Positions 6,149-43,268 of a stretch of 46,659 nucleotides of DNA are shown here, piece after piece. The stretch covers positions 1 to 46,659 of the forward strand of contig CANKLS010000004.1 in the NCBI GenBank assembly GCA_947483645.1, in the 5' to 3' direction. The stretch's first letter is position 1, and every line of letters begins with the position of its first letter. The notes beneath the pieces are model-generated. The model made no database searches, had not been told where the DNA came from, and saw nothing but the letters and a program-made list of their open reading frames with translations. The DNA is from Bradymonadales bacterium (GTDB lineage: Bacteria > Myxococcota > Bradymonadia > REDH01). Position numbers and translations under genes: made by a program.

Positions 6149-9100
6149 ATGTCGCGTCGAAATCGGATGACTACAATGAGCTTGGTGCTTGTGGGCGTTG
6201 CCTACCTCGCCGGATGTGCTGAGGTCCCCGGCGACATCGACCGGACGCAGCCCAACAAGATTGCGAAGAAGATGTTCGAGGGCGAGTGGTACTTCCGCCA
6301 GACGGTGGTTGATGCCAACTCGACCGCTTACACCATGTTCCAGGGCCTTGAAGGCAACATGGAGAAGCTCAAGTTCGAGTTCACCGAAGACAGCCTCATC
6401 GGTCGCCGGACCCATGAAGATGTCATCGGTATCTCGACCAGCCAGCAGGGCGTTCAGGGCTTCACGCCCGAGTACGGCCAGCCGATTGTGAGTTTCCGTG
6501 TCAGCCAGTACTTCGACGTGCAGCGTGACTACAGCGCCGCCACCGGCGAGCGTACCAACACCATCTCGGAGAACGGTTCGGACCGTCCCTGGTATGAGCG
6601 TGAGTACCTCCGGGTTGACTGGACCAACAACCAGATCTCCTCCGAGTCTGACCCATTCCCGAGCATCGAGATGATGGGCCAAGTCGCCGTCACCCCCCAG
6701 GACTCCGGCAAGGAGATCACCTTCCGGACCGAGTGCTCCGACAAGGAGGGCAAGTCTGTCGATTGCACGACGGAGAACAGCGAGGTCATCTACTTCGACG
6801 TTGTGACCACCTACGTGAGCGCCTCGCCTTGGATCGAGTGCATCACTGACTTCGGTTACCCGAACAACGGCGCCGACTGCGGCCCCGAGACCATCGAGGT
6901 CCGTTCGTCGTTCCGCAAGATTGACCCGACCGACGATTACATCGCACGTCAGTACGACGAGTACGACATGCTCAAGTTCGGCTTCTTCCGGACCGAGCGC
7001 TGCGTCTACGATCGCTTCTACGGCTGCCGCGACTCGTCGAAGGTGCTGCTCGCCAACAACTGGAAAATCTTCCAGAACTATCGCAACGAAGATGGCTCTG
7101 TGAAGCCGATTGCTGAGCGCACTGCCAAGCCGCTGGCCTTCTACCTCAACACGGAGTTGCCGGTCCCGCTGATCGACGACACCTTCCGCGCAACGGAGCA
7201 GTGGAGCGCGGTCTTCGCGCGTGCGGTCGCCGCCGCCCAGGGCAAGACCCCGGAGCAGGTCGGCCGCATGTTCTACCTCTGCTTCAACCCCGGCTTCGAC
7301 AACATCGCCGACTTCCAGTCCACGATCGACGGTTGGAAGGCTGAGTTCAAGGACCCCGCCGCCGCCGAGCTTCTGCAGGCCGCTGCTGAGGCCTCGGCCG
7401 AGGGCTATGCCAAGGGAATCTGCAAGCAGGTTGGCAAGGAGAAGCTTCTGGGCGACCTTCGCTACAGCTACATCAACTGGGTCAACAACCAGACCACGCT
7501 GCCCTGGGGCGGCTACGGCCCGAGCGCCGCAGACCCCATCACCGCCCAGATCGTGAGCGGCAACGCCAACATGAACGGCGCGAACTACGACGAGTCTGCA
7601 AACCGGGTCTACGAGCTCCTCCAGATCCTGCTCGGCGAGCTCGAGCCTGAGGATGTGGGCTTCGCGAAGCCAACGAAGGAGTACTTCGAGAGCCTCCGTG
7701 CCCAGTTCCCGGCGGATGCCTACTTCGGCAACCTCAAGAACGAGGGGCAGGCCAAGTACTTCAACTACCTCAAGGGCGAGATCAACAAGAACCTCAAGAA
7801 CTTCGAGCGGGCCAAGCGCACCAACCTCGAGGTGCTGAACCGTCCCCGCGTCAAGACCATCCTCAAGCAGAAGCCTGAGTTCTTCCGGGCAAAGACCGCG
7901 ATGCAGAGCGAGCCCCTCGAGGTCTTCCGCGGGTCGTCTGTGGAGCAGCGTGCCAAGCTCGCCGACTTCAAGCAGATCTTCCCCGCCGCCGAGATCGCCC
8001 GCCAGGCAGGCAAGGAGCTGACCGACGACGAGCAGACGATGGCGTCGAGCTTCGAATCGCCCATCGACTTCGGCACGCTCAAGGCGGTTAGCCGCCGCAT
8101 CAACGAGCGTCAGCGTCAGTTCGGCATGAAGAGCTTCTGCTTCATGGACGGCGCTTGGGACTCGGACATGGTGGGCCTTGCCTACCAGCTTGCCAAGTAC
8201 CGCGCCGGGCTCCTTGAGCGGCACCCTGAACTCATCAACGACAGGGAGGCGCTCCGCCTCGAGCTCTGGCAGTGGGTCCGTGGCATCATGCACCGCGCGA
8301 CGCTCGAGCACGAAATCGGACACACGGTTGGCATGCGCCACCAGTTCCGCGCCTCGTCCGACGCGATGAACTACTTCCCGCAGTACTGGGCGCTTCGTCA
8401 CGAGACCTTCAACGAGGACTGCGACGACGCGGGCTACAAGACCTTCAAGGTTGACGGCTACGCCACCGGTGACGTGGCCCCCGCCTCTTGCGGCGGCAGC
8501 GAAGCCGACCGTCTGGCCCAGAGCCCCGCGCTGCTTCAGCAGCTCCGCGAGGGTCGTCTTGCCGACGGCACCGAGTTCGACAACAGCATCACCGAGTACC
8601 AGTACACCTCGACGATGGAGTACGCCCGCAAGCCCAACTCCGACATCTCGGGCCTCGGCATGTACGACTACGCCGCCATCGCCTTCTCCTACGTGAACAT
8701 GGTTGAGGTCTTCAACGAGGCCCCGAGCAAGCTCAAGGTCCGCGCCAGCTTCGACCCCGTTACCGGCTCGTTCGACAGCAGCGTCATCTCCCGCTCGCCC
8801 AACAAGGTCACCACCATGCTTGACGTGGACGACTACACCTACACCGCTGCTGGCGCGACCGACACCGACCCCGAGGGCGACCGGATCCGCGATAACCAGT
8901 GGAGCTACTGGCACTACAGCACCCTGCCCGTCATGTTCTATAACACCGACGCAACCGCGATTGACCCGAACTCGAACGTGGCCTTCGCCTACGCTCCCGA
9001 GATCAAGGCCGGCCTTGCGCACCTCAAGGGCATGACCCCCATGTACAACCGCAGCATGCGGTTCGCCGACCAGCTCGGCGCCGGCGAGGTCAAGGTCCCC

Positions 9101-10603
9101 TACGGCTTCTGCTCGGATGAGTACAACGGCTCCGCCAGCGACTGCCGCGTCTTCGACTCCGGCGCCGACGATTATGAGAACTTCGTCAACCTCAAGGAGA
9201 TGTACGAGTCTCGCTACGTCTACTCGATGTTCCGTCGCGAGCGTCCTGGCTTCGCCATCTCGATCTACCCGGTCTTCGCCGGCTCGATGAGCAGCTTCTT
9301 CACGCCCGCCCTCAACGCCTACCAGTTCTGGCTCCTCAAGGCCTCGGGTCGTGGCGTCGAGTGGTACAACACCGAGCACGGCGGCCTCATGGCCTCGATC
9401 GCGGCGCAGGAAGCCATCAACTTCATTGCTGAGGCCATCACCATCCCCAGCCCCGGTACCTACGCGACGGACAATGTCACGGGCCAGCTCGTCAACCTCT
9501 CCTACGAGTATGACTACCGCCTGCCCTCGACCTCCGAAGCCGCCCAGAAGGGCTACTACGGCGACGACTACACCAACGTGACCCTCTCGGACGGCGCCCG
9601 CTACAGCTTCGCGCAGTTCAAGGAGAACGAGGATGGCCAGATCGGTTACTACGACGCCTACTTCGGCCTCGGCACCGAGATCATGTCGCACTTCTGGCAC
9701 AAGTATGCCGCGATGATCGCCCTGATGAGCGGCGACGTCGAGGTTGTCGGCGCCGACACCGACTCCAACCAGTCGGGCTTCGTCATCCCGCCCTACATCG
9801 TCTTCTCGGACGACCTCACCAAGTTCATGGGTGGTATCATCACCGAGAACTTCGATGACGTGGGCCGCTGCGTGTCGCGTAACGATGACGGTACCGTCAC
9901 GATCGAGCCCATCCCGGCCATCCGCGGTGCTGGCCCCTCCTGCGCTGCCGGCCAGCAGATCCTCAACCCCTACGCCGACATCTACGGCCGCAGCGACTTC
10001 AACATGCGGACGCTCGGCACGCTCTACCCCACGGCCTACTTCCAGTCGACCTACAGCTCGCGCTGGCTCGATAGCGCCGCCATCTACGTTGTCGCTCGCG
10101 ACACCACGGGCGAACTCCCGGCCGGTTTCGAGTGGTTCACCTACACCAGCGACCTGGGCATCCAGTACGCCACGAAGATCCCCACCGGCTTCGACCCCAC
10201 CGACCGCGCCTCCGACAAGATCCGCATCGGCTACGACATGCTCGCGAAGATGAACACGCTCCAGATCGAGAAGGACTCGCTCACGGAGATCTCGACCCTG
10301 CTCAATGGCCTCCCGGCCAGCGCCAGCGCGGCCGACTTCGAGGAGCTCTTCGTCGCCATCACGACGGACGGCCCCTCGGGTGACTCCTTCTCGTCGGTCG
10401 TCCGCGACCCCGAGTTCCAGGCCATCATCCGCGCAGGCTTCCTTGACCGCGCGGCAGTGAACCGCCTCGACTCGCTCGTGCCGGGCCTCATCGACAGCAT
10501 CCTCTTCGACCTCCAGTCGCAGGAAGAGGATGTTCGCTACCTTGCCGACTCCGTGCGCATGATGCAGGGCCTCAACGTCTTCATGCCCGGCATCGACTTC
10601 TAA
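6149..10603 (+). CDS. very large lipoprotein zinc metalloprotease (metzincin-type motif)
   Basis: A 1484-aa lipoprotein. The signal peptide ends in LAGC with the lipid-bearing Cys at residue 23. The ATG at 6149 is preceded by AAAGGAG. Residues 721-731 read HEIGHTVGMRH, the full HExxHxxGxxH zinc-binding motif of metzincins. About 90 residues later STMEYA, with Met823, fits the Met-turn, and DISGLGMYDYAAI follows, as in large zinc-dependent metalloproteases of the DUF5117/DUF4953 type. The ~700-residue N-terminal region and ~650-residue C-terminal region are rich in aromatic residues and Asn and are not assigned. The protein is probably anchored in the outer membrane or at the cell surface and degrades protein. 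It is unusually long. It ends at a strong hairpin terminator. Confidence 0.85.
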   Translation: MSRRNRMTTMSLVLVGVAYLAGCAEVPGDIDRTQPNKIAKKMFEGEWYFRQTVVDANSTAYTMFQGLEGNMEKLKFEFTEDSLIGRRTHEDVIGISTSQQGVQGFTPEYGQPIVSFRVSQYFDVQRDYSAATGERTNTISENGSDRPWYEREYLRVDWTNNQISSESDPFPSIEMMGQVAVTPQDSGKEITFRTECSDKEGKSVDCTTENSEVIYFDVVTTYVSASPWIECITDFGYPNNGADCGPETIEVRSSFRKIDPTDDYIARQYDEYDMLKFGFFRTERCVYDRFYGCRDSSKVLLANNWKIFQNYRNEDGSVKPIAERTAKPLAFYLNTELPVPLIDDTFRATEQWSAVFARAVAAAQGKTPEQVGRMFYLCFNPGFDNIADFQSTIDGWKAEFKDPAAAELLQAAAEASAEGYAKGICKQVGKEKLLGDLRYSYINWVNNQTTLPWGGYGPSAADPITAQIVSGNANMNGANYDESANRVYELLQILLGELEPEDVGFAKPTKEYFESLRAQFPADAYFGNLKNEGQAKYFNYLKGEINKNLKNFERAKRTNLEVLNRPRVKTILKQKPEFFRAKTAMQSEPLEVFRGSSVEQRAKLADFKQIFPAAEIARQAGKELTDDEQTMASSFESPIDFGTLKAVSRRINERQRQFGMKSFCFMDGAWDSDMVGLAYQLAKYRAGLLERHPELINDREALRLELWQWVRGIMHRATLEHEIGHTVGMRHQFRASSDAMNYFPQYWALRHETFNEDCDDAGYKTFKVDGYATGDVAPASCGGSEADRLAQSPALLQQLREGRLADGTEFDNSITEYQYTSTMEYARKPNSDISGLGMYDYAAIAFSYVNMVEVFNEAPSKLKVRASFDPVTGSFDSSVISRSPNKVTTMLDVDDYTYTAAGATDTDPEGDRIRDNQWSYWHYSTLPVMFYNTDATAIDPNSNVAFAYAPEIKAGLAHLKGMTPMYNRSMRFADQLGAGEVKVPYGFCSDEYNGSASDCRVFDSGADDYENFVNLKEMYESRYVYSMFRRERPGFAISIYPVFAGSMSSFFTPALNAYQFWLLKASGRGVEWYNTEHGGLMASIAAQEAINFIAEAITIPSPGTYATDNVTGQLVNLSYEYDYRLPSTSEAAQKGYYGDDYTNVTLSDGARYSFAQFKENEDGQIGYYDAYFGLGTEIMSHFWHKYAAMIALMSGDVEVVGADTDSNQSGFVIPPYIVFSDDLTKFMGGIITENFDDVGRCVSRNDDGTVTIEPIPAIRGAGPSCAAGQQILNPYADIYGRSDFNMRTLGTLYPTAYFQSTYSSRWLDSAAIYVVARDTTGELPAGFEWFTYTSDLGIQYATKIPTGFDPTDRASDKIRIGYDMLAKMNTLQIEKDSLTEISTLLNGLPASASAADFEELFVAITTDGPSGDSFSSVVRDPEFQAIIRAGFLDRAAVNRLDSLVPGLIDSILFDLQSQEEDVRYLADSVRMMQGLNVFMPGIDF

Positions 10604-21078: not shown

Positions 21079-21603
21079 CTACGGTTCGACCCGAGCCGAG
21101 AAGATTCCCTGATCCGACTCGATGCGAAGGTTGGCAGGGCGATGGTCGTTCGGCGCGGTCGCACCGGGGAATTTCGCAGTGGAGGCCCCCTCCCAAAGCG
21201 ACAGGCCAGGCTGCCTCGGAATGCCAAAACGCGGCGTAAAGTCAGACATCTGGCACTCAACAGTCCCGTAGGCCGGGACCTGCGCAACGCGGAGAAGATA
21301 GATGTCGTCGGCGTCGACAAGGACGTTTGTCCACGCCTTCGCGGTATCGTTGTGGACCGTGAGAAAGACAGAGCCCTGCTCGGTCTGACCAACATCGAAG
21401 AGCAGCCGCTCTACCCGCTGCGCGCCCCAGAACGAGGCCGACCAGACGAGTGAGGCGAGGGCTGCTACACCGTAGGCACCGAGCGCCAAGCGGCGCAGAC
21501 GCTCTAAGCCCGCATAGCCGGAAAAAAGCTCTCGCCAGCGGCCGGCAGGCGCCGGAAGCGGCGGCGGAAGCGCTGCCATCCGTTGGGTGGTCGGCCGTGT
21601 CAT
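21079..21603 (-). CDS. 174-aa single-pass membrane protein, unknown function
   Basis: A short Pro-rich cytoplasmic N-terminus is followed by a hydrophobic helix near residues 40-60 (LALGAYGVAALASLVW). About 110 exported residues follow, including GSVFLTVHNDTAKAWTNVLVDADD and GTVECQMSDFTPRFG. The exported part looks like a small beta domain. No family is recognised. The stop is 8 bases before hemW, so it appears to be the first gene of the minus-strand run. The ribosome-binding site is poor, and a candidate -10 ends only 6 bases before the ATG, so the mRNA may be leaderless. Confidence 0.65.
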   Translation of the reverse strand: MTRPTTQRMAALPPPLPAPAGRWRELFSGYAGLERLRRLALGAYGVAALASLVWSASFWGAQRVERLLFDVGQTEQGSVFLTVHNDTAKAWTNVLVDADDIYLLRVAQVPAYGTVECQMSDFTPRFGIPRQPGLSLWEGASTAKFPGATAPNDHRPANLRIESDQGIFSARVEP

Positions 21604-21808: not shown

Positions 21809-23554
21809 ATGAAGTTTTCCTGCGAGGCCTGCGCGGCCCGTTACTACATGGATGACGACAAGGTGCGTCACAAGACGCTCCGCATCCGCTGCAAGAAGTG
21901 TGGCAATGTCATGACCGTCGGCGACGGCGAGACGACACTTTCCGAGCAGGGAAGCGGGCCCGACCTTGCATCTGTAGCGCCTCGAGAGCAGCTGCAGCCC
22001 ACGGCCGATAGCGTCTGGTTTTACGCCGCGGCCGGACAGACCTATGGCCCCTACGCGGAAGGTGAGCTGTTTCTGCGTTTCGAAACGGGGCGCATCGCAG
22101 AAGAGGTCCATGTCTGGAAGCAGGGATTCGACGCATGGCTCCCGGCCGGTGAAGTCGAAGCATTCGCCGCCGCGATTCAGCAGGCTCGTCCGGGCCGTCA
22201 GCTGACGCAGGCCATCGACATCGGCACCTTGAATCTTGCGCCGGCAGCCCCCGCGAGACCAACGCCCGCAGCAACTCCGCCCATCGGCGACGCAGAGGCA
22301 AAGGCGCGGCTTACGGCACTTCGCGACGGCCTGCGCAAGAGCCGGGGTGCAGAGAGCGGTACGAGCATCAAGCCGCAGACGCAGGGCCCCGTCTCCTCGG
22401 CCGGCGCGAGCGCCGAGGCCGGGTTCGAGATGTTGGACCTGCTTGACGGCAGTATCGCCGACGCCACCGCGAGTCTCCTCTCAAAGGCGCAAGCTTCGGC
22501 AACGCCGCTCACTTCTGCGTCTACTCCGTCGGTGGCTGCTGAGGCCATTCCGGCCGAGGTCGCCGAGACGGAGCCTACGCTGGAAGTCGCTCCGGCTGCG
22601 GCTGTCGCAGCGGCGTCGGCTCCCGCAGCAGCTCCGACGCCATCAGGCCTATCCTCGATCCCGAGACTCCCGGTACTCGCAGACGCCGCGCTGCTTCCCC
22701 AAGGTCAGGGGCCTGCAAGCGGCGCCATGGCAAGTGCGCTGGGCGGCGCGCCCACCGCCTCACTGATGCTGCAGATTGAGCATACCAAGTCTGCAAACCG
22801 CACACGCATGCTCATCGGTGGCGGCGTCGTCGCACTCGTGGTGGGCGGCGCTATCTTTGGCCTGGGCAGCCGCGCCGACAAGCCGGCGGCCACTCCCGCC
22901 GCTGAGGTGCGCAACACGATAGAGCCCGATCTGACGCTCACGCCCGAGCAGGCGGCGCTCAAGGCCGCCCGGAGCGACAGCGCGGTCACGGCCGCCAAAG
23001 AGCAGCTCCGTAGTGCGATGCGCGAAGGGGCCTCGTCGGCGGTGACCACCATCATGAAGAAGCGCATGGCCGAAGATGCCGCCCGTAAGAAGAGGGGAAT
23101 GTCGGCCGTCTCACGGACGACCAAGGTCGTATTCAACGAAGCGACCGGCTCCATCGCCGAAACCGATATCAACGCCCCGGAGCAGCCGCCGGTTGCCTCC
23201 GCAACCGCGCGGGCACGTGGCATCGGCGTAGCCATTGCTGCACCCAAACTCGGTCGCGTAAGCAGCCCGGCCGCGCTGCCCGCGAGTTACTTTGCGGCTG
23301 GACTGCGCAAGGTCGAAGAGTCGATACAGTACTGCAATCAGCGACAGCTCTCCGCCGAAGGTCGCCTGCGGAAGCCCCGCGTCGAACTGAAGTTCAGCAT
23401 CCTGCCTTCGGGAAGGGTCAGTACCGTGGACTTCAACAACGAGGTCGGAGCCACAACCTTCGCGGGCTGCATGCGCGGACGGAAGGATCGGTGGCTGTTC
23501 GCACCATTCGAGGGCGAGCCCCTGCAGATCGCCAAAACCTATATCGTTGAGTAG
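21809..23554 (+). CDS. GltJ/AgmX-like zinc-ribbon, GYF and TonB-C-like envelope protein
   Basis: A 581-aa protein. The start at ATG 21809 (MKFSCEAC) is preceded by GGAG; the open frame extends 36 codons further without homology. The MJ0042-type zinc ribbon has Cys5, Cys8, Cys28 and Cys31. A GYF_2-type domain lies at about 69-122 (VWFYAAAGQTYGPYAEGEL). A long Ala/Pro-rich disordered stretch, one transmembrane helix (about 334-355) and a periplasmic helix follow. The C-terminal ~90 residues (YFAAGLRKVEESIQYCNQRQ ... GRVSTVDF) resemble the AgmX/PglI TonB-C-like domain. This is the architecture of Myxococcus GltJ, the gliding-machine component whose cytoplasmic part works with MglA. It could instead serve another TonB-like trans-envelope system. 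The next gene lies close downstream. Confidence 0.8.
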   Translation: MKFSCEACAARYYMDDDKVRHKTLRIRCKKCGNVMTVGDGETTLSEQGSGPDLASVAPREQLQPTADSVWFYAAAGQTYGPYAEGELFLRFETGRIAEEVHVWKQGFDAWLPAGEVEAFAAAIQQARPGRQLTQAIDIGTLNLAPAAPARPTPAATPPIGDAEAKARLTALRDGLRKSRGAESGTSIKPQTQGPVSSAGASAEAGFEMLDLLDGSIADATASLLSKAQASATPLTSASTPSVAAEAIPAEVAETEPTLEVAPAAAVAAASAPAAAPTPSGLSSIPRLPVLADAALLPQGQGPASGAMASALGGAPTASLMLQIEHTKSANRTRMLIGGGVVALVVGGAIFGLGSRADKPAATPAAEVRNTIEPDLTLTPEQAALKAARSDSAVTAAKEQLRSAMREGASSAVTTIMKKRMAEDAARKKRGMSAVSRTTKVVFNEATGSIAETDINAPEQPPVASATARARGIGVAIAAPKLGRVSSPAALPASYFAAGLRKVEESIQYCNQRQLSAEGRLRKPRVELKFSILPSGRVSTVDFNNEVGATTFAGCMRGRKDRWLFAPFEGEPLQIAKTYIVE

Positions 23555-23576
23555 CATCTCGCAGAGGCTGGAACGG

Positions 23577-24827
23577 ATGGTTCAAATGCTACGGCGACTC
23601 CTCAAAAATTTTGGAAAACCGGCCGGCGAGCCGCCTCGGCGGAATCGCCTCGACGCCATGCTCGAGGGGGCGCGCGAGCCGTGGTTGGCGGAGCTGCCGA
23701 AGAGCAGCCTCGCACCGCTGCCCCTGCTCTACCGTCACGCTATCCGCACGGAGTTGGCAGATGGCGCCTCCGCACAGGGGCTCGACGAGGCCGGCTTTGA
23801 CCGCTTTGCGGAGGCCTGGTGCGCACTGCTCGCTGAAAACGCTCGTCTGCCCGAGAGTCTGCAGATTCCTGATGCCTCCATCCACATGCCCCGCAACCTG
23901 CTGCTCGCCTACTTCGGCGACCAGTCGACGCTCGCCCGCGAGGCGCAGATCATGCTCCGGTATGTCGAGGCCCAGTTCGGTGCAGGCGGCTACGCGCAGG
24001 TAGAAATTCTGCTTCGGCTCTTCGAGACCGAGGCCATCACGCAGCGCAACAACGAGCGGAACATCTTCTTCGAGCGCTGCAACAAGAAGCTTCTGAGCAC
24101 GCGCCCCAAGAGTTCTCCGCCGCGCGTGGAGCTCTGGCAGGCCGCGCTCTCAGACTCCCTCAAGCGTCCGGGCGAAGGGCTGCCCGCAGCGCTCGCTGCA
24201 CTCGCCGACCATGCCGGCGCCCGCTTCCATCTCCTCTCGCAAGACATGCAACAGGTGGAACGCTGGACCACCGCGACGGCCCGTTTGTCGCCGCAACATC
24301 GCCTCGAGTTCCTGCAGACCGTTCCCGGCTGGCGCTTTCGCCCGGTCGACGACCTCGCTGCGGCAGAGCTCACGGCAAACCTTGTTGGCATGACCCTCTT
24401 CACAGGCACCGAAAACCATCTCCGTCAGCTTGTCATGGCCTGCTACTTTGTTGCACTCGCGACGGGCAGAACGGGACAGGAACCGCTCATCGCAGAAACC
24501 CTGCGTTGGTTGCGCGGCACCGTAGCGCCAGAAGCCAATCGGATTCTCTCCGAGATGCATCGGCGCTGTTCGGTCAATGACGAGGGCCTCGTCGACGCGA
24601 CCAACCTCGTTTTGCGCGAGTTCATCCCCGACGGGGCACTGCCGTCCGCCTTCTCCGAGACGCAGATCCGAGACGCCTGCGCCGTCGTCCACCGCCGCCT
24701 AGCACAGGTGCAGATCGCCAACCTTGCTGAGGGCGAATACGACCTCGGCGGCCTCATCCTCGACGAGCTCCTCGGATTCAGGCGCTCCGACATGACAGAC
24801 CAACTTAAGCTCCATCGATTGGTGTAA
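23577..24827 (+). CDS. 416-aa helical protein, unknown function
   Basis: A soluble protein of predicted all-helical character, rich in Leu, Ala and Arg, without signal peptide or membrane segment. No family is recognised. Notable segments are RNNERNIFFERCNKKLLSTRP in the middle and a conserved-looking end, YDLGGLILDELLGFRRSDM. The ATG at 23577 is preferred over TTG 23547, which would overlap the previous gene; AGAGG lies 9 bases upstream of it. It is packed between the GltJ-like gene and the TPR gene (2-base gap), so it is very likely a partner of both. Confidence 0.7.
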   Translation: MVQMLRRLLKNFGKPAGEPPRRNRLDAMLEGAREPWLAELPKSSLAPLPLLYRHAIRTELADGASAQGLDEAGFDRFAEAWCALLAENARLPESLQIPDASIHMPRNLLLAYFGDQSTLAREAQIMLRYVEAQFGAGGYAQVEILLRLFETEAITQRNNERNIFFERCNKKLLSTRPKSSPPRVELWQAALSDSLKRPGEGLPAALAALADHAGARFHLLSQDMQQVERWTTATARLSPQHRLEFLQTVPGWRFRPVDDLAAAELTANLVGMTLFTGTENHLRQLVMACYFVALATGRTGQEPLIAETLRWLRGTVAPEANRILSEMHRRCSVNDEGLVDATNLVLREFIPDGALPSAFSETQIRDACAVVHRRLAQVQIANLAEGEYDLGGLILDELLGFRRSDMTDQLKLHRLV

Positions 24828-24829
24828 CG

Positions 24830-27800
24830 ATGGCCGCCGTTCAACTCCGCGACAACCAGGGTTCGGCAAACCGCGTACAGGCGCTGCCGCTCAGCATGGA
24901 GATTGAACGGGGCCGCGGCTACCTCCTCGCCAAGAGCCGCCGCATCCATCCGCTCTGCGACCTGGAGCAGCTGCGGCTCGAGATCCCTGCGATCAAGTTC
25001 CCGTTCACGCTCGGTGATGGCGACAACCCGCTTGCCTCCGCACGGACCCGCATCGACATCGTCCGCGCCCTCACCTCCGAGCAGGACGCATCTCATTTCC
25101 TCACCTCTGCGCTGGCCAAGGTCTCTCCCGGAACCGACGCCTGGCTGAGCCTCGGCAAGCAGCATGTTGACCTGCTGCTCCGACTCGAACCGACCGAGGG
25201 CCCCGTCGAACTCTGCATCCGCCTCGGCTTCGCGCTCGAAGATGTTGACGGCCGCCATCGCGTCCGTGTCGCCCCGCTCCGCACCTTTGCCCTCGGAAAC
25301 ACCGCGGCGCCCGTTTCGGTGCTGCTTGCCGACCTTTGGAGAGCCTGGACCTCGTCGGAGGACCGCGCCCCCTTTGGCCCGCAGTCGGAGCGCGATCTGC
25401 TCTGGTTCGAGCCCCTGCGCCTCGTCGCAGAACAGGTCGCCTCGCAGCGCGGCTGGAAGCTGCCCGGCGAAGAGGGGCTGCGGCGCTTCACAGCCCATCT
25501 CCGCGGCCGCGAGGTGCTCTGGGGCGCGCAATCCGACGGACGCGTGCCGGCGCTGCATGATGAGCGCGACACCTATGCGCTGCTCACAGAGGACGCCGGC
25601 CGTTGGCAGGAGGCCTGGGCGCTGGGAGCACAGGCAGACGAAGCGGCAATCGGCGGAGACTACGAGCAGGCCCGCCAGCTCTTCGAGACCCAGATTCGCC
25701 GCCTGGGTCCGCAGACGCATTGGCAAGACAGGCTGCTCGACCTCCTCTGCGCCATGAACACCGCGGATGCCACCGCCGAGGCGCGGCAACGGGCCCGCGA
25801 CCGGCTTGCTCGGCTCCCCAGCGACCTCGTTGCGATCAGCGCCCTGCTCCGGCTCGCCGATCGCGACGGCGACAGGACCACGGCCACCCAGCTCCGCGCC
25901 AAGCTCCTCGACCTCGCACAGGTGGAGCAAGACACCGTGCTGGAGGTTGGCTGTCATCTCGCCATCGCACGCAGCCTCTCGCGCTCCGACCTTGCTCTAT
26001 CGGCGCAGCATGTGGACGCTGCGCGTACCATCGCGCCCGGCCTCCGCTGCATCCATGCGCTCCGTCGTGAGCTCGCCCGCCGCGCAGGCGACCCCATCGC
26101 GCTCCGCATCTCGCTCGAGTCCGAGATTGCCTCAACGACAGACCGCGACACCCGCATTGGCCGGACCGTGGAGCTCGCCGAGCTCTTTGCCTATGAACTC
26201 GGCGACCTCTCTCATGCGCGCGTCCTCCTCGACCGCGTGCTCGAGACCTCGCCCTCCTCTGCCACCACCTGGCGGCTGCGCGGCGACATCGACACCAAAC
26301 TCGAGCGGCCGCTCGATGCGGTCCGCGCCTTCGAGCGGGCGGCAGCGCTCAGCGAGTCAACAGAGCCCGAACTGTCCGCCGCCGACCGGGTCCGCGCAGC
26401 GGAGCTCTGGATGGGCTCGCTCAACGACCCGCGCACCGCCGAGAGCCACCTCCGAAAGGCGCTGCTTGCGCAGCCGCGGAACGCTGAGGCCTGCAGGCTC
26501 CTCAGCCGCATCCTCATCGCCGAAGCCCGACTCGATGAGGCGCTCGGGCTCCATGTTGCGACCAACGAACTCGTCGGACTCGGTGAGCCACGCGACGGCG
26601 AACTCACCCGCGCCGAGTGGTACGATCTGAAGGCCGAACTAGAGACCGCCCGAGGCCGCGAAGACGAGGCGCGCGCCATGCGCCACCAAGCGCAGAACCT
26701 GCGCGCTTCCGAGGCCGTCCGGCAGACCGCTGCCCCCCAGCAATCACCAGCCTCCGCCCGAGAGGCAGCGCAGCTCGCCCGCGAGGCCGGCGACGGAAAG
26801 AAGGCGATCGAACTGCTCCTCGCGGCGGAGCAGCAGGAGCCCTTCGACTCCGGCAAGGCCCGACTCTGGACCGAAATCGCAACCCTCTACGACGAAGTCC
26901 TCGAAGACGACGACGCAGCCTGGAGCGCCGTGATGCGGGCGCTCGACCTCGATGAGCGGGCGCTCGAAGCCACACCTGCGCTCCTCATGCTCGTGAGTCG
27001 GCAGGCGCCGCAGCGTGGCGCACTCGCCCGAGGCGCCGAGGCGCTCGCGCTGCTTGCGCGGACCGCCGAGCAGGATGTGAACCGCGGCATGCAGCTCACG
27101 CAGGCAGCCGACTGGCTCTACCAGGCCCGCCCCGACGACCCGCGCCTCCTCGGCTGGACCGCAGACGCCCTGCAGGCCGCACCGACCATGCTCTCCGCCT
27201 ACGCCATGCGTGCTCGCATCCTATCGGCCCGTGGCCAGTTTGCAGATGCCATCGCGACGCTCCGGCGGGCGCTTGCCATCGAAGAGTCGGAGCCGCTCGA
27301 GCGGGCGCCCCATGCACGCATGGCCGCAGAGCTGCTGATGCAGACGGGCGATGCAGATGCGGCCATCTCCATCCTGCTCGACATGCGCGCCTCCACCACC
27401 GCCGACGGAGCCTCCGAACGGCTACTCCTCAAGGCTCGCGAACAGGCGGGCCGCTTCGCTGAGCTCCGAGACGAGGCCACCGCGCGCGCCGCCCAGCAGC
27501 TCGGACAGAGCGCGACCACGCCGCTCGCGGTCTGGAAAACGCTGCAGGTTCCGCCGGCCGATATCTCGCGTGAGCTCGCTGCCGACGCGCTCGCCCAGGC
27601 AGCTCGCTACGCTGCCCGCATGAAGGATTCTGCCTGCGCCGAGTGGCTCGCACAGGCGGAGCGGTTCGGGGCCTACGAGAACGCGCTCACGCAAGCCCGC
27701 ATCGCTGTTGGTCGGGCCACGAGCGACCACGCCATGCTCGCAGCCGCCCTCCGCGCCATGGCAGCCGAGCTCCTCGACCCGGCGGAGGCAGAGCGCCTCG

Positions 27801-28492
27801 TTGCCGAAGCCGAGCTCGCCGAGCGCAAGCTCAAGCCCAAGCTCAAGACGACCCCCAAGCCGGTGCAGCAGCCACCGATGCCGACCGCGCCGGAGCGGAA
27901 CCCGGCCGCCGCGGCTGCGCGCACCTCGGCCCGTCTGGAGCAACTCGCTGAAGGTGTGACCGAGTCGCGCAAGCCCTCGGTGGCAACGACGGCGACAGGC
28001 GGTCCCGCCAATGCCATCGCCGAGCTCGACCGCATGGTGGAGGCCGGGCAACGGACAGCTGCCATCGAGCAGATTGACGAACTCCTCCGCGCCACCCGGA
28101 CCTCGCGCGACAGCGCCGTTCGCCGCAGCCTTCTGCTCCGAAAGGGTCGCTGGCTGCTCGATGAAGGCACGCTCGGCCGAGATGTCACGCTGGCGCTGAC
28201 GGGCGCGCTCATCCTCGACGACAGCTCCGCCGAGACCCGATTCGAACTCTTCCGCGCCTACACGCTCGGCCGCGATGCGCGGGGCGCGACCGAACAGCTC
28301 CGCTCCCTCTTCGACGCCCTGCGGCAGACGCCTCAGGCGGTTGAGCCGGATCGGATCGTGAAGTTGATGCTCCGCTTGGAGCAGCTCGACCGTGCCCCCG
28401 ACTTCGGCCAGCAGCTCGAACTCGCAAGCGAGGCCTCGCCCTCGCTCGCGGCCGCCCTCCGCCAAGCGGCGCCGCGCTCCGCAAAGGGATAG
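24830..28492 (+). CDS. 1220-aa TPR-repeat protein
   Basis: A very long, Ala/Arg/Glu-rich helical protein with no signal peptide. From about residue 260 onward there are repeated helix pairs of TPR type. Examples are GDYEQARQLFETQI, DLSHARVLLDRVLETSP, ATTWRLRGDIDTKLERPLDAVRAF, NAEACRLLSRILIAEARLDEAL and GQFADAIATLRRALAIEE. A Lys/Pro-rich break (KLKPKLKTTPKPVQQPP) near residue 1010 separates a last helical domain. The first 250 residues are not repeats and are not recognised. TPR arrays are protein-binding scaffolds. Its place behind a GltJ-like gene recalls Myxococcus GltI/AgmK, a giant TPR gliding protein, but that is analogy. It starts 2 bases after the previous stop without a good ribosome-binding site, so coupling is likely. 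Confidence 0.8.
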   Translation: MAAVQLRDNQGSANRVQALPLSMEIERGRGYLLAKSRRIHPLCDLEQLRLEIPAIKFPFTLGDGDNPLASARTRIDIVRALTSEQDASHFLTSALAKVSPGTDAWLSLGKQHVDLLLRLEPTEGPVELCIRLGFALEDVDGRHRVRVAPLRTFALGNTAAPVSVLLADLWRAWTSSEDRAPFGPQSERDLLWFEPLRLVAEQVASQRGWKLPGEEGLRRFTAHLRGREVLWGAQSDGRVPALHDERDTYALLTEDAGRWQEAWALGAQADEAAIGGDYEQARQLFETQIRRLGPQTHWQDRLLDLLCAMNTADATAEARQRARDRLARLPSDLVAISALLRLADRDGDRTTATQLRAKLLDLAQVEQDTVLEVGCHLAIARSLSRSDLALSAQHVDAARTIAPGLRCIHALRRELARRAGDPIALRISLESEIASTTDRDTRIGRTVELAELFAYELGDLSHARVLLDRVLETSPSSATTWRLRGDIDTKLERPLDAVRAFERAAALSESTEPELSAADRVRAAELWMGSLNDPRTAESHLRKALLAQPRNAEACRLLSRILIAEARLDEALGLHVATNELVGLGEPRDGELTRAEWYDLKAELETARGREDEARAMRHQAQNLRASEAVRQTAAPQQSPASAREAAQLAREAGDGKKAIELLLAAEQQEPFDSGKARLWTEIATLYDEVLEDDDAAWSAVMRALDLDERALEATPALLMLVSRQAPQRGALARGAEALALLARTAEQDVNRGMQLTQAADWLYQARPDDPRLLGWTADALQAAPTMLSAYAMRARILSARGQFADAIATLRRALAIEESEPLERAPHARMAAELLMQTGDADAAISILLDMRASTTADGASERLLLKAREQAGRFAELRDEATARAAQQLGQSATTPLAVWKTLQVPPADISRELAADALAQAARYAARMKDSACAEWLAQAERFGAYENALTQARIAVGRATSDHAMLAAALRAMAAELLDPAEAERLVAEAELAERKLKPKLKTTPKPVQQPPMPTAPERNPAAAAARTSARLEQLAEGVTESRKPSVATTATGGPANAIAELDRMVEAGQRTAAIEQIDELLRATRTSRDSAVRRSLLLRKGRWLLDEGTLGRDVTLALTGALILDDSSAETRFELFRAYTLGRDARGATEQLRSLFDALRQTPQAVEPDRIVKLMLRLEQLDRAPDFGQQLELASEASPSLAAALRQAAPRSAKG

Positions 28493-28501
28493 GGCGACAC
28501 C

Positions 28502-29212
28502 ATGAAGGGGCTGGCACCACACCGCAGGTTCGTCGCCCTCTCCGCGCTTCTGCTCTCGCTCGCAGCATGCAGCGCGGCGCCCCTGCAAGGCCCGGCAGAC
28601 GCTGCTGCGGAAGGCAGCGGCTCCAGCGGTAGGTCCGATGCGAGCCCGTCCAGCGATCTCTCGAACGATGCAGTATCGGATGCCAGCACCGTCGATGGCA
28701 CGGGCGATGTCGGCGAAATCATCGACGCGCAGGACGACGCGGCCACCTCTCCTGACGGCTCCGCCGACGCGGAGGGCAGCGACGCTGCGGGGGAAGATGC
28801 CACCCCGCCAGAGCCGATCGGCCCTTGGATGGAGATCGGACACGGTGAAACCGGCTTCGAAAGCGTCGACGAGAGCAGCTTGGTGAGCTGCATCTTCGGA
28901 CCACAGGGCAGCTACCATGTCTGGGCCGCGATTCGCCTCCACAACATCGAGCCGTCGGCCGTTCTCGTCGATACGACTGCCGAGATCGGTGGCACGGCCG
29001 TTGGCGCAGGCTTTGCGGCGCCGCTCAACTCCGAGTGGACCGTCAACCCGGACGGCACCGCCGACATCTTCGGCCAGTTCCTCTACCTCGACTTCGGCAC
29101 CAACTTCCCCGCGCTTTCTGAACAGCCCGTCACCCTGCGCGCCACCGCCCGCAGCGATTCGGTCAACATGGTCGTCGCGACGGCAACCGGTAGGTTTCTA
29201 TGCATCCAGTAA
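28502..29212 (+). CDS. acidic Asp/Ser-rich lipoprotein
   Basis: A 236-aa lipoprotein. The signal peptide ends in LAAC with the acylated Cys at 23. Residues 24-105 are a disordered Asp/Ser/Gly/Ala linker, which is common in surface lipoproteins of Myxococcota. Residues 110-236 form a compact domain (WMEIGHGETGFESV ... YHVWAAIRLHN ... VTLRATARSDSVNMVV) resembling small beta-sandwiches, with Cys residues near both ends (VSCIFGP, FLCIQ). The specific function is unknown. It lies 9 bases after the TPR gene, and its last 13 bases overlap the epimerase start, so it shares their transcript. Confidence 0.8.
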   Translation: MKGLAPHRRFVALSALLLSLAACSAAPLQGPADAAAEGSGSSGRSDASPSSDLSNDAVSDASTVDGTGDVGEIIDAQDDAATSPDGSADAEGSDAAGEDATPPEPIGPWMEIGHGETGFESVDESSLVSCIFGPQGSYHVWAAIRLHNIEPSAVLVDTTAEIGGTAVGAGFAAPLNSEWTVNPDGTADIFGQFLYLDFGTNFPALSEQPVTLRATARSDSVNMVVATATGRFLCIQ

Positions 29213-34969: not shown

Positions 34970-35053
34970 GCGAGAGTGGTGGAATTGGCAGACACGCAGG
35001 ACTAAGGATCCTGTGGCTTAAACGCCGTGCGGGTTCGACTCCCGCCCCTCGCA
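34970..35053 (+). tRNA. tRNA-Leu, anticodon AAG
   Basis: A class II tRNA with a long variable arm. The anticodon stem-loop is CAGGA/CUAAGGA/UCCUG, with U33 followed by AAG at 35004-35006. It would decode CUU, and more codons if A34 becomes inosine. The T arm GCGGG-TTCGACT-CCCGC and discriminator A73 are typical of tRNA-Leu. CCA is not encoded. The acceptor stem has one A-C mismatch at the 6-67 pair (34975 against 35047). A strong terminator follows. Confidence 0.93.
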
Positions 35054-35056
35054 CTA

Positions 35057-42126: not shown

Positions 42127-42618
42127 ATGAACGCTCAGAGTGTCATCTACGAAGACGAGCAGAAGCAGCTCGCAGAGATCTGCCAGCGCCTGCTCCGCGA
42201 GGCGTTGGCCAAGACCATCTTCCTGCTCGACCGGAACGGTCAGGTCATCGTCTCCATCGGCGAGATCGCAGAGATCGATGTAACCAGCCTGGCCAGCCTC
42301 GTGGCCGGTACAACTGCCGCAACCTCGAGCCTTGCGAAGCTCCTGGGTGAGCCCGAATTCCCGGTTCACTTCCACGAGGGAAAGCGGGACCACCTGCACA
42401 TCTCTCTGGCGGGCGAAGAGTTCATTCTGACGGTCATCTTCGATCAGCGCTCGAGCCTCGGTCTGGTGCGTCTGCGGGTGAAGAAGACGACGGAGCGGCT
42501 GCAGGAGGCCTTCGTTGCGATGGAGGAGCGTCGGCGGTTGCCAGCCCCTCAGGGCGCCGGGCTGTTCGACGAGATCACTGACGACGATATCGACAACCTC
42601 TTCGGAGACGGATTCTAA
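42127..42618 (+). CDS. mglB: MglB-like roadblock/LC7 protein
   Basis: A 163-aa roadblock-fold protein. The core (about 8-125) includes ICQRLLREALAKTIFLLDRNGQVIVSIGE, SLASLVAGTTAATSSLAKLLGE and HISLAGEEFILTVIFDQRSSLGLVRLRV. In Myxococcus MglB is the GTPase-activating protein of MglA and marks the lagging pole. Size (159 aa there) and the order mglB-mglA agree. A C-terminal acidic tail (DEITDDDIDNLFGDGF) ends the protein. mglA starts 53 bases later. Confidence 0.92.
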   Translation: MNAQSVIYEDEQKQLAEICQRLLREALAKTIFLLDRNGQVIVSIGEIAEIDVTSLASLVAGTTAATSSLAKLLGEPEFPVHFHEGKRDHLHISLAGEEFILTVIFDQRSSLGLVRLRVKKTTERLQEAFVAMEERRRLPAPQGAGLFDEITDDDIDNLFGDGF

Positions 42619-42671
42619 GCAGGCCGCCCGCGCCCCGCCCCTGAACCGACCGCAGCGATGAACGAGGAACC

Positions 42672-43268
42672 ATGTCCTTCATCAACTATTCGAGCCGAGA
42701 AATCATCCTGAAGATCGTCTATTACGGTCCGGGACTCTGCGGGAAGACGACCAACATCAAGTTCATCTACGGCTCGACCAATCCCGATGCGCGCGGCAAG
42801 TTGATCAGCCTCGAGACGAAGGCGGAGCGGACGCTCTTCTTCGACTTCCTGCCGCTGAGCCTGCCGCCCATCCGGGGCTTCAAGACGCGGCTCCACCTCT
42901 ACACGGTGCCTGGACAGCTGTTCTACTCGGCCTCGCGCCGGCTGATCATGAAGGGCGCAGACGGCGTGGTCTTTGTTGCGGACAGCCAGCGAGAGCGGTT
43001 CGAGGCGAACCAGATCTCGATGGACGACCTGAAAGAGAACCTGGCTGCCTATGGCTACGACATCACGAAGCTCCCCTTCGTCGTGCAGTACAACAAGCGG
43101 GATTTGCCGAACATCAATACGGTCGAGGAGCTTCGCGCGGAGTTCAATCCCATGGGCGCCCCCGACTTCGCAGCGGCGGCAGGTCACCCCGAGGGGCCTG
43201 GCGTCTTCGACACGCTCAAGAGCGTGGTGAAGATGATCCTGCAGGACCTCAAGAACCCGCAGTCCTGA
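42672..43268 (+). CDS. mglA: MglA-type polarity GTPase
   Basis: A 198-aa Ras-like GTPase. The P-loop is GPGLCGKT (19-26). KTTNIKFIYGS and the switch region LETKAERTLFFDFLPL are typical of MglA. TVPGQLFYSASRRL covers switch II with Gln in the catalytic position. NKRD is the guanine-binding motif. In Myxococcota MglA sets leading-pole polarity and drives motility complexes. ATG 42672 has GAGG upstream. Together with mglB this predicts surface motility or another polarised process. Confidence 0.96.
   Translation: MSFINYSSREIILKIVYYGPGLCGKTTNIKFIYGSTNPDARGKLISLETKAERTLFFDFLPLSLPPIRGFKTRLHLYTVPGQLFYSASRRLIMKGADGVVFVADSQRERFEANQISMDDLKENLAAYGYDITKLPFVVQYNKRDLPNINTVEELRAEFNPMGAPDFAAAAGHPEGPGVFDTLKSVVKMILQDLKNPQS

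Follow-up and report, generated by a model that had tools for sequence, protein, structure and literature searches.

The systems closest to the locus described here are known from Myxococcus xanthus. One is the gliding (Glt) machine, for which Table 1 of PMC3169522 gives gltI as the gene for a tetratricopeptide repeat (TPR) protein of 4132 amino acids (aa) that has no signal peptide, adjoining gltJ, whose product has one transmembrane (TM) segment. Another is the pair formed by SopA and SgmX: as described in PMC11580455, SopA (MXAN_0371) is a lineage-restricted cytoplasmic protein of 405 aa with no Foldseek match; SgmX, a TPR protein, is its interaction partner, and SopA promotes the formation of type IV pili. 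Bradymonas and Persicimonas are reported in PMC7188933 to be capable of gliding and to possess genes for type IV pili. Here we examine four consecutive genes on a 46,659-nucleotide stretch of DNA (contig CANKLS010000004.1 of assembly GCA_947483645.1, hereafter 'the window') from a member of the Bradymonadales. They code, in order, for a zinc-ribbon/GYF/TM protein (gene 1), a helical protein of 416 aa (gene 2), a TPR protein (gene 3) and a lipoprotein (gene 4). A first-pass annotation proposed that these products form a reduced Glt machine reaching from the cytoplasm to the outer membrane. We instead favour, tentatively and with somewhat less than even confidence, the reading that the four genes do not encode a single envelope-spanning machine, the 416-aa protein being a membrane-peripheral cytoplasmic adaptor and the TPR protein a separate scaffold. 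The neighbourhood itself is largely ordinary, and holds one orphan protein family together with a TPR scaffold that starts with a domain found repeatedly across the phylum.

The 416-aa gene represents a clade-restricted family of uncharacterised proteins under purifying selection. Within the class, 39 of 57 genomes carry the family, at a single locus in each, and its distribution follows the seven bacterial families of the class (f1 to f7): it is present in 39/41 genomes across five of them (f1 6/6, f3 7/8, f4 1/1, f5 20/21, f7 5/5) and in 0/16 across the other two (f2 0/13, f6 0/3). Its profile matched none of 320 other genomes of the phylum at E<=1e-3 (best E 0.138), and a search of 5.8 billion proteins returned 139 matches at that threshold. 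Few of the 120 matches listed bear names, and these are 'hypothetical' or 'uncharacterized'; the named source organisms are Persicimonas caeni and Bradymonadales. FIV42_04390 is the member in Persicimonas caeni, and Bradymonas sediminis has a homologue. No Pfam family matches the protein up to E=0.1, the sole NCBIfam match is at chance level (an IS110 transposase, 13.5 of 140 bits), and a Foldseek search of its model against the PDB found no match (best E=0.53), all of which bears out the earlier view that this protein is novel. Estimates of dN/dS against two genomes of the same genus (G001, the nearest relative, and G004) are 0.09-0.10 for this gene, 0.04-0.07 for the TPR gene and 0.13-0.25 for gene 1; the lipoprotein gene, compared with G001 only, is the least constrained of the set (0.42). 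All four genes are real and under selection, and their coordinates, strand and small gaps (22, 2 and 9 bases) are as first annotated.

The 416-aa protein is predicted to be almost entirely helical (model pLDDT 88, pTM 0.86). Neither a signal peptide nor a TM segment was detected in it, and the TPR protein likewise has no signal peptide and no hydrophobic or TM segment. For these reasons both proteins are probably cytoplasmic, and a periplasmic scaffold role for the TPR protein is unlikely given its lack of any hydrophobic segment. Because a near-invariant methionine of the 416-aa family falls at residue 4, the true start of gene 2 may be at position 23586.

TPR matches in gene 3 are weak, with one barely above its cut-off (TPR_19, 25.7 versus 25 bits). 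The first ~260 residues of its product align across members from f1, f2, f5 and f7 and share a conserved GWKLP motif. A profile of this N-terminal domain matched 75 of 282 genomes of the phylum at E<=1e-3, namely 40/57 within the class and 35/225 outside it; 13 of the outside matches reach E<=1e-10, and some of the weaker ones are confined to the profile's TPR end. The earlier claim that the first 250 residues are novel therefore stands in so far as they form a domain of their own that no curated family matches above cut-off, but this domain is also found in other classes of the phylum. A possible relationship to the LmeA-like phospholipid-binding domain (PF11209) is suggested by matches in overlapping stretches of 4 of 12 such N-termini (best E=5.5e-4, 20.5 versus a 27.3-bit cut-off) and by a match of the TPR gene of G006 in a genome search. 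However, every match among the relatives is under the Pfam gathering score, the window's own N-terminus is unmatched, and an hhalign comparison of the domain with a single PF11209 member gave nothing better than shuffled controls.

The genes that follow TPR homologues elsewhere differ by family. In f2 the next gene codes for a TRAP transporter T-component (TAtT) lipoprotein (L067:13846-14784; L068:13757-14701; L078:13677-14588; two of three scanned), and in f5 for an OmpA-domain protein with TSP_3 repeats (L062:4116-5912; L064:3769-5577; L066:4927-6669).

According to the reading that we favour, the 416-aa protein would probably lie against the cytoplasmic side of the inner membrane, held there by a basic amphipathic N-terminal helix, and would present its helical domain of ~340 residues as a protein-binding adaptor. 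The neighbouring TPR protein would act as a separate cytoplasmic scaffold that may bind partners and has its own N-terminal domain. By analogy with SopA and SgmX, the adaptor might modulate an MglA-dependent process at the cell pole, for instance the activity of type IV pili, in these gliding predators, and this is the weakest step of the proposal. Like SopA, the 416-aa protein is about 400 aa long, predicted to be cytoplasmic, lineage-restricted, and free of Foldseek matches, TM segments and signal peptides, and many members of its family have conserved ends with, after the N-terminal helix, a long spacer that the window's member lacks. SopA works with a cytoplasmic TPR protein, and in one family the gene next to the 416-aa gene encodes a TPR protein that is probably cytoplasmic. 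The likeness is one of described features, and profiles of the 416-aa family match nothing at E<=1e-3 in the 320 phylum genomes outside the class. The window's TPR protein resembles SgmX (1060 aa) in length, cytoplasmic prediction and absence of signal peptide and TM segments, whereas SgmX is described in PMC7519303 as having TPRs at both ends and the window's protein begins with ~260 aa of non-TPR sequence.

Support for the putative membrane anchor comes from the best amphipathic moment near the start, which exceeds the 95th percentile of background in 64 of 110 family members. Several observations weigh against our proposal. The amphipathic start is not above background in the other 46 members and is absent from three f7 members that were aligned, and residues 1-18 of the window's protein are modelled with low confidence. 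Joint presence of the 416-aa gene and the TPR N-terminal domain does not exceed chance (30 genomes with both, 9 and 10 with only one, 8 with neither; Fisher p=0.13, uncorrected for kinship). The link to motility is drawn from likeness to SopA, and co-occurrence lends it no support because MglA homologues (55/57 class genomes) and PilT-type ATPases (57/57, 55 above cut-off) are nearly universal, including where the 416-aa family is absent. A bolder version, in which the 416-aa protein has a novel fold with a single origin in the Bradymonadales-like class and is dedicated to joining the TPR scaffold and the zinc-ribbon/GYF TM protein at the membrane face to MglA-controlled surface machines for predation, strikes us as quite doubtful. 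The window carries MglB-like and MglA-like genes (42127..43268), which lie downstream of genes reading as ybaB and recR.

Alternatively, the 416-aa protein could have an enzymatic or signalling role that has nothing to do with motility, and stand beside its present neighbours by chance. Such a function would suit the invariant or near-invariant polar residues of the family (N88, E131, Q141, N159, T299, E302 and D396), as well as neighbours that vary by bacterial family. An NtrC-type regulator and a histidine kinase accompany the gene at >=10 of 15 f5 loci; all seven f3 loci examined have a small lipoprotein, a single-domain response regulator and an RNase III-like gene, as judged by reading the sequences; and a single-domain response regulator also sits beside the gene at the single f4 locus. 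We nevertheless regard this explanation as unlikely, given that no enzyme family and no clear enzyme fold was matched, although searches of this kind cannot exclude an enzyme. The gene after the regulator and kinase at these f5 loci is one that we take, from a motif, to encode a prepilin peptidase; an NCBIfam scan gave no such name.

The comparison with the Glt machine begins with gene 1. Its product has a zinc ribbon (PF13717) and a GYF_2 domain (PF14237), both above Pfam cut-offs, a single hydrophobic segment at residues 332-354 and a TonB-like tail, so that the layout first described is present with the reservation that the tail, an AgmX/PglI-type domain, is sub-threshold (31.4 versus 40 bits). 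GltJ itself has a zinc ribbon and a GYF domain. Gene 1 thus shares with GltJ/AgmX these two domains, the TM segment, the TonB-like tail and a place beside a TPR gene, but scores only 48.7 bits against the 450-bit equivalog cut-off of the GltJ model (NF033761), in one stretch confined to its first 62 residues. By these comparisons, gene 1 is GltJ-like in layout only. The TPR protein resembles GltI/AgmK in lacking a signal peptide and in lying near a GltJ-type gene, yet it has 1220 aa as opposed to 4132.

TPR proteins of GltI-like size occur at another locus in relatives of the window. In G011, G043, G055 and G037, a GltG-like gene lies within one to three open reading frames (ORFs) of a giant TPR gene, away from the window-type locus; the giants comprise 4148 aa (G011), 4154 aa (G043) and a 4198-codon open frame (G055), and that of G037 is incomplete in the stretch examined. 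The nearest relative, G001, carries on another contig a 581-aa FHA and TonB_C protein just before a TPR protein of >=1946 aa that is cut by the contig end. Pfam confirms the FHA domain in G037 and G001, in G011, G043 and G055 the match to the GltG model includes its FHA end, and no FHA domain was found by Pfam among the four window genes. The giants, likened to GltI by size and compared among themselves and with the window's TPR protein, match one another in all ten pairs (E from 1.8e-72 down to 0), whereas the window's protein matches three of the five, at best with E=7.6e-8 over 349 residues.

That all four products form a reduced envelope-spanning Glt-like gliding complex is consequently very improbable in our judgement, despite the layout of gene 1 and the neighbouring positions of gltI and gltJ in M. 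xanthus (PMC3169522). NCBIfam models for GltJ and GltG gave matches below cut-off in all 57 class genomes and none above it. The exported component is also not conserved. The N-terminal hydrophobic segment of gene 4 ends in LAAC, which we read as a lipobox, and this acidic lipoprotein is present in the three same-genus genomes examined (G001, G002 and G004). However, gene 4 has no matching counterpart at the loci of G005 and G006, which represent two sister genera; there the TPR gene is followed by what reads as an esterase-like lipoprotein in G005 and a CAP-domain-like lipoprotein in G006. With no export or membrane signal in genes 2 and 3 and the lipoprotein missing from two sister genera, the suggested span from cytoplasm to outer membrane is not upheld. 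The resemblance to Glt noted at first is not groundless, yet a more convincing candidate for the counterpart lies elsewhere.

A more modest arrangement would be an inner-membrane module, particular to the window's family, in which the cytoplasmic zinc ribbon and GYF domain of the GltJ-like protein would hold both the 416-aa adaptor and the TPR scaffold. Genes 1-3 are adjacent in 6/6 genomes of this family, with one contig break (G003), and the gaps between them are tight. In G005 the gene order of the window breaks directly after the TPR gene and genes 1-3 stay together, which is a small point in favour of a real unit. Of the 53 members of the 416-aa family that have >=480 aa, 28 contain PPPP, which might serve as a ligand of a GYF domain. 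In contrast, PPPP is absent from the first 300 residues of all 57 shorter members, among them the window's, and genes 1-3 lie apart in other families. Their linkage is not selective either, as the window is collinear throughout with a stretch from another genus (G006:C60:75-128 kb), where counterparts of 29/35 ORFs, 26-81% identical as proteins, follow one another as in the window. We consider such a module improbable.

Adjacency says little here because gene order is kept along almost all of the 46 kb within the window's family, and it is mostly inherited. Of the 31-letter words sampled from the window, 41% also occur in the nearest relative. Nor are the four genes singled out by spacing, since short gaps and overlaps are common elsewhere in the window: gaps of <=22 bases separate 12 of 20 listed same-strand pairs, or 9 of 17 when the three pairs of the four-gene set are set aside, the ORF after gene 4 overlaps it by 13 bases, and the next pair overlaps by 4. 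The first-pass annotation had named separate occurrence in relatives as evidence against a four-gene unit, and this is what we observe. In three relatives whose genomes are single contigs, the matches to genes 1-3 are 0.28 to 4.9 Mb apart, with best matches to the 416-aa, TPR and gene 1 proteins at 3.52, 1.18 and 2.32 Mb in G011, 1.94, 4.97 and 1.10 Mb in G037, and 1.18, 5.81 and 0.89 Mb in G048, where the gene 1 positions are best matches of unproven orthology. Moreover, f2 has the TPR N-terminal domain in 10/13 genomes and the 416-aa gene in none, and f3 has the 416-aa gene in 7/8 genomes and the TPR N-terminal domain in none.

Other parts of the window share in this collinearity. A 1484-aa ORF with a lipoprotein-like start (6149-10603) is 37% conserved in G006, and a 174-aa protein of no known family (21079-21603, minus strand) has 31% identity to the collinear G006 stretch. 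A tRNA-Leu gene with anticodon AAG, which is unusual in bacteria, lies at 34970-35054, and a second genus has this tRNA at the corresponding position (L125:5950-6034).

Table 1. Positions of the genes, protein segments and related loci discussed in the text.
Feature	Position	Strand	Remarks
Gene 1, GltJ-like by layout only	21809..23554	+	581 aa; longest ORF of the frame begins 21701
Gene 2, 416-aa helical protein	23577..24827	+	416 aa; longest ORF begins 23547
Amphipathic, basic stretch at the N-terminus (MLRRLLKNFGK) that may anchor the protein to the membrane	23586..23618	+	Hydrophobic moment; putative function
C-terminal domain of 416-aa protein	24120..24824	+	Folded alone, pLDDT 92.3; no Foldseek PDB match at E<=0.001
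Gene 3, TPR protein	24830..28492	+	1220 aa
N-terminal ~260-aa domain of TPR protein, GWKLP motif	24830..25609	+	Alignment; sub-threshold LmeA-like signal in relatives
Gene 4, acidic lipoprotein	28502..29212	+	236 aa
MglB-like gene	42127-42618	+	Context only; MglB model 78.4 of 200 bits
MglA-like GTPase gene	42672-43268	+	Context only; sequence reading
Candidate Glt G1-type cluster of the class	L155:370-9063; L152; L153; L154; L156		GltG-like gene near TPR giant

The close packing of genes here mostly reflects inherited order and should not be taken for the mark of a complex, and the loci that combine a GltG-like gene with a TPR giant offer one starting point in the search for gliding machinery in this group. 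The named members of the class are predators. Within this group, the 416-aa gene, found in 39/41 genomes across five families, under strong purifying selection and with a confidently predicted fold that matched nothing in our PDB searches, is a good target for clade-specific biology.

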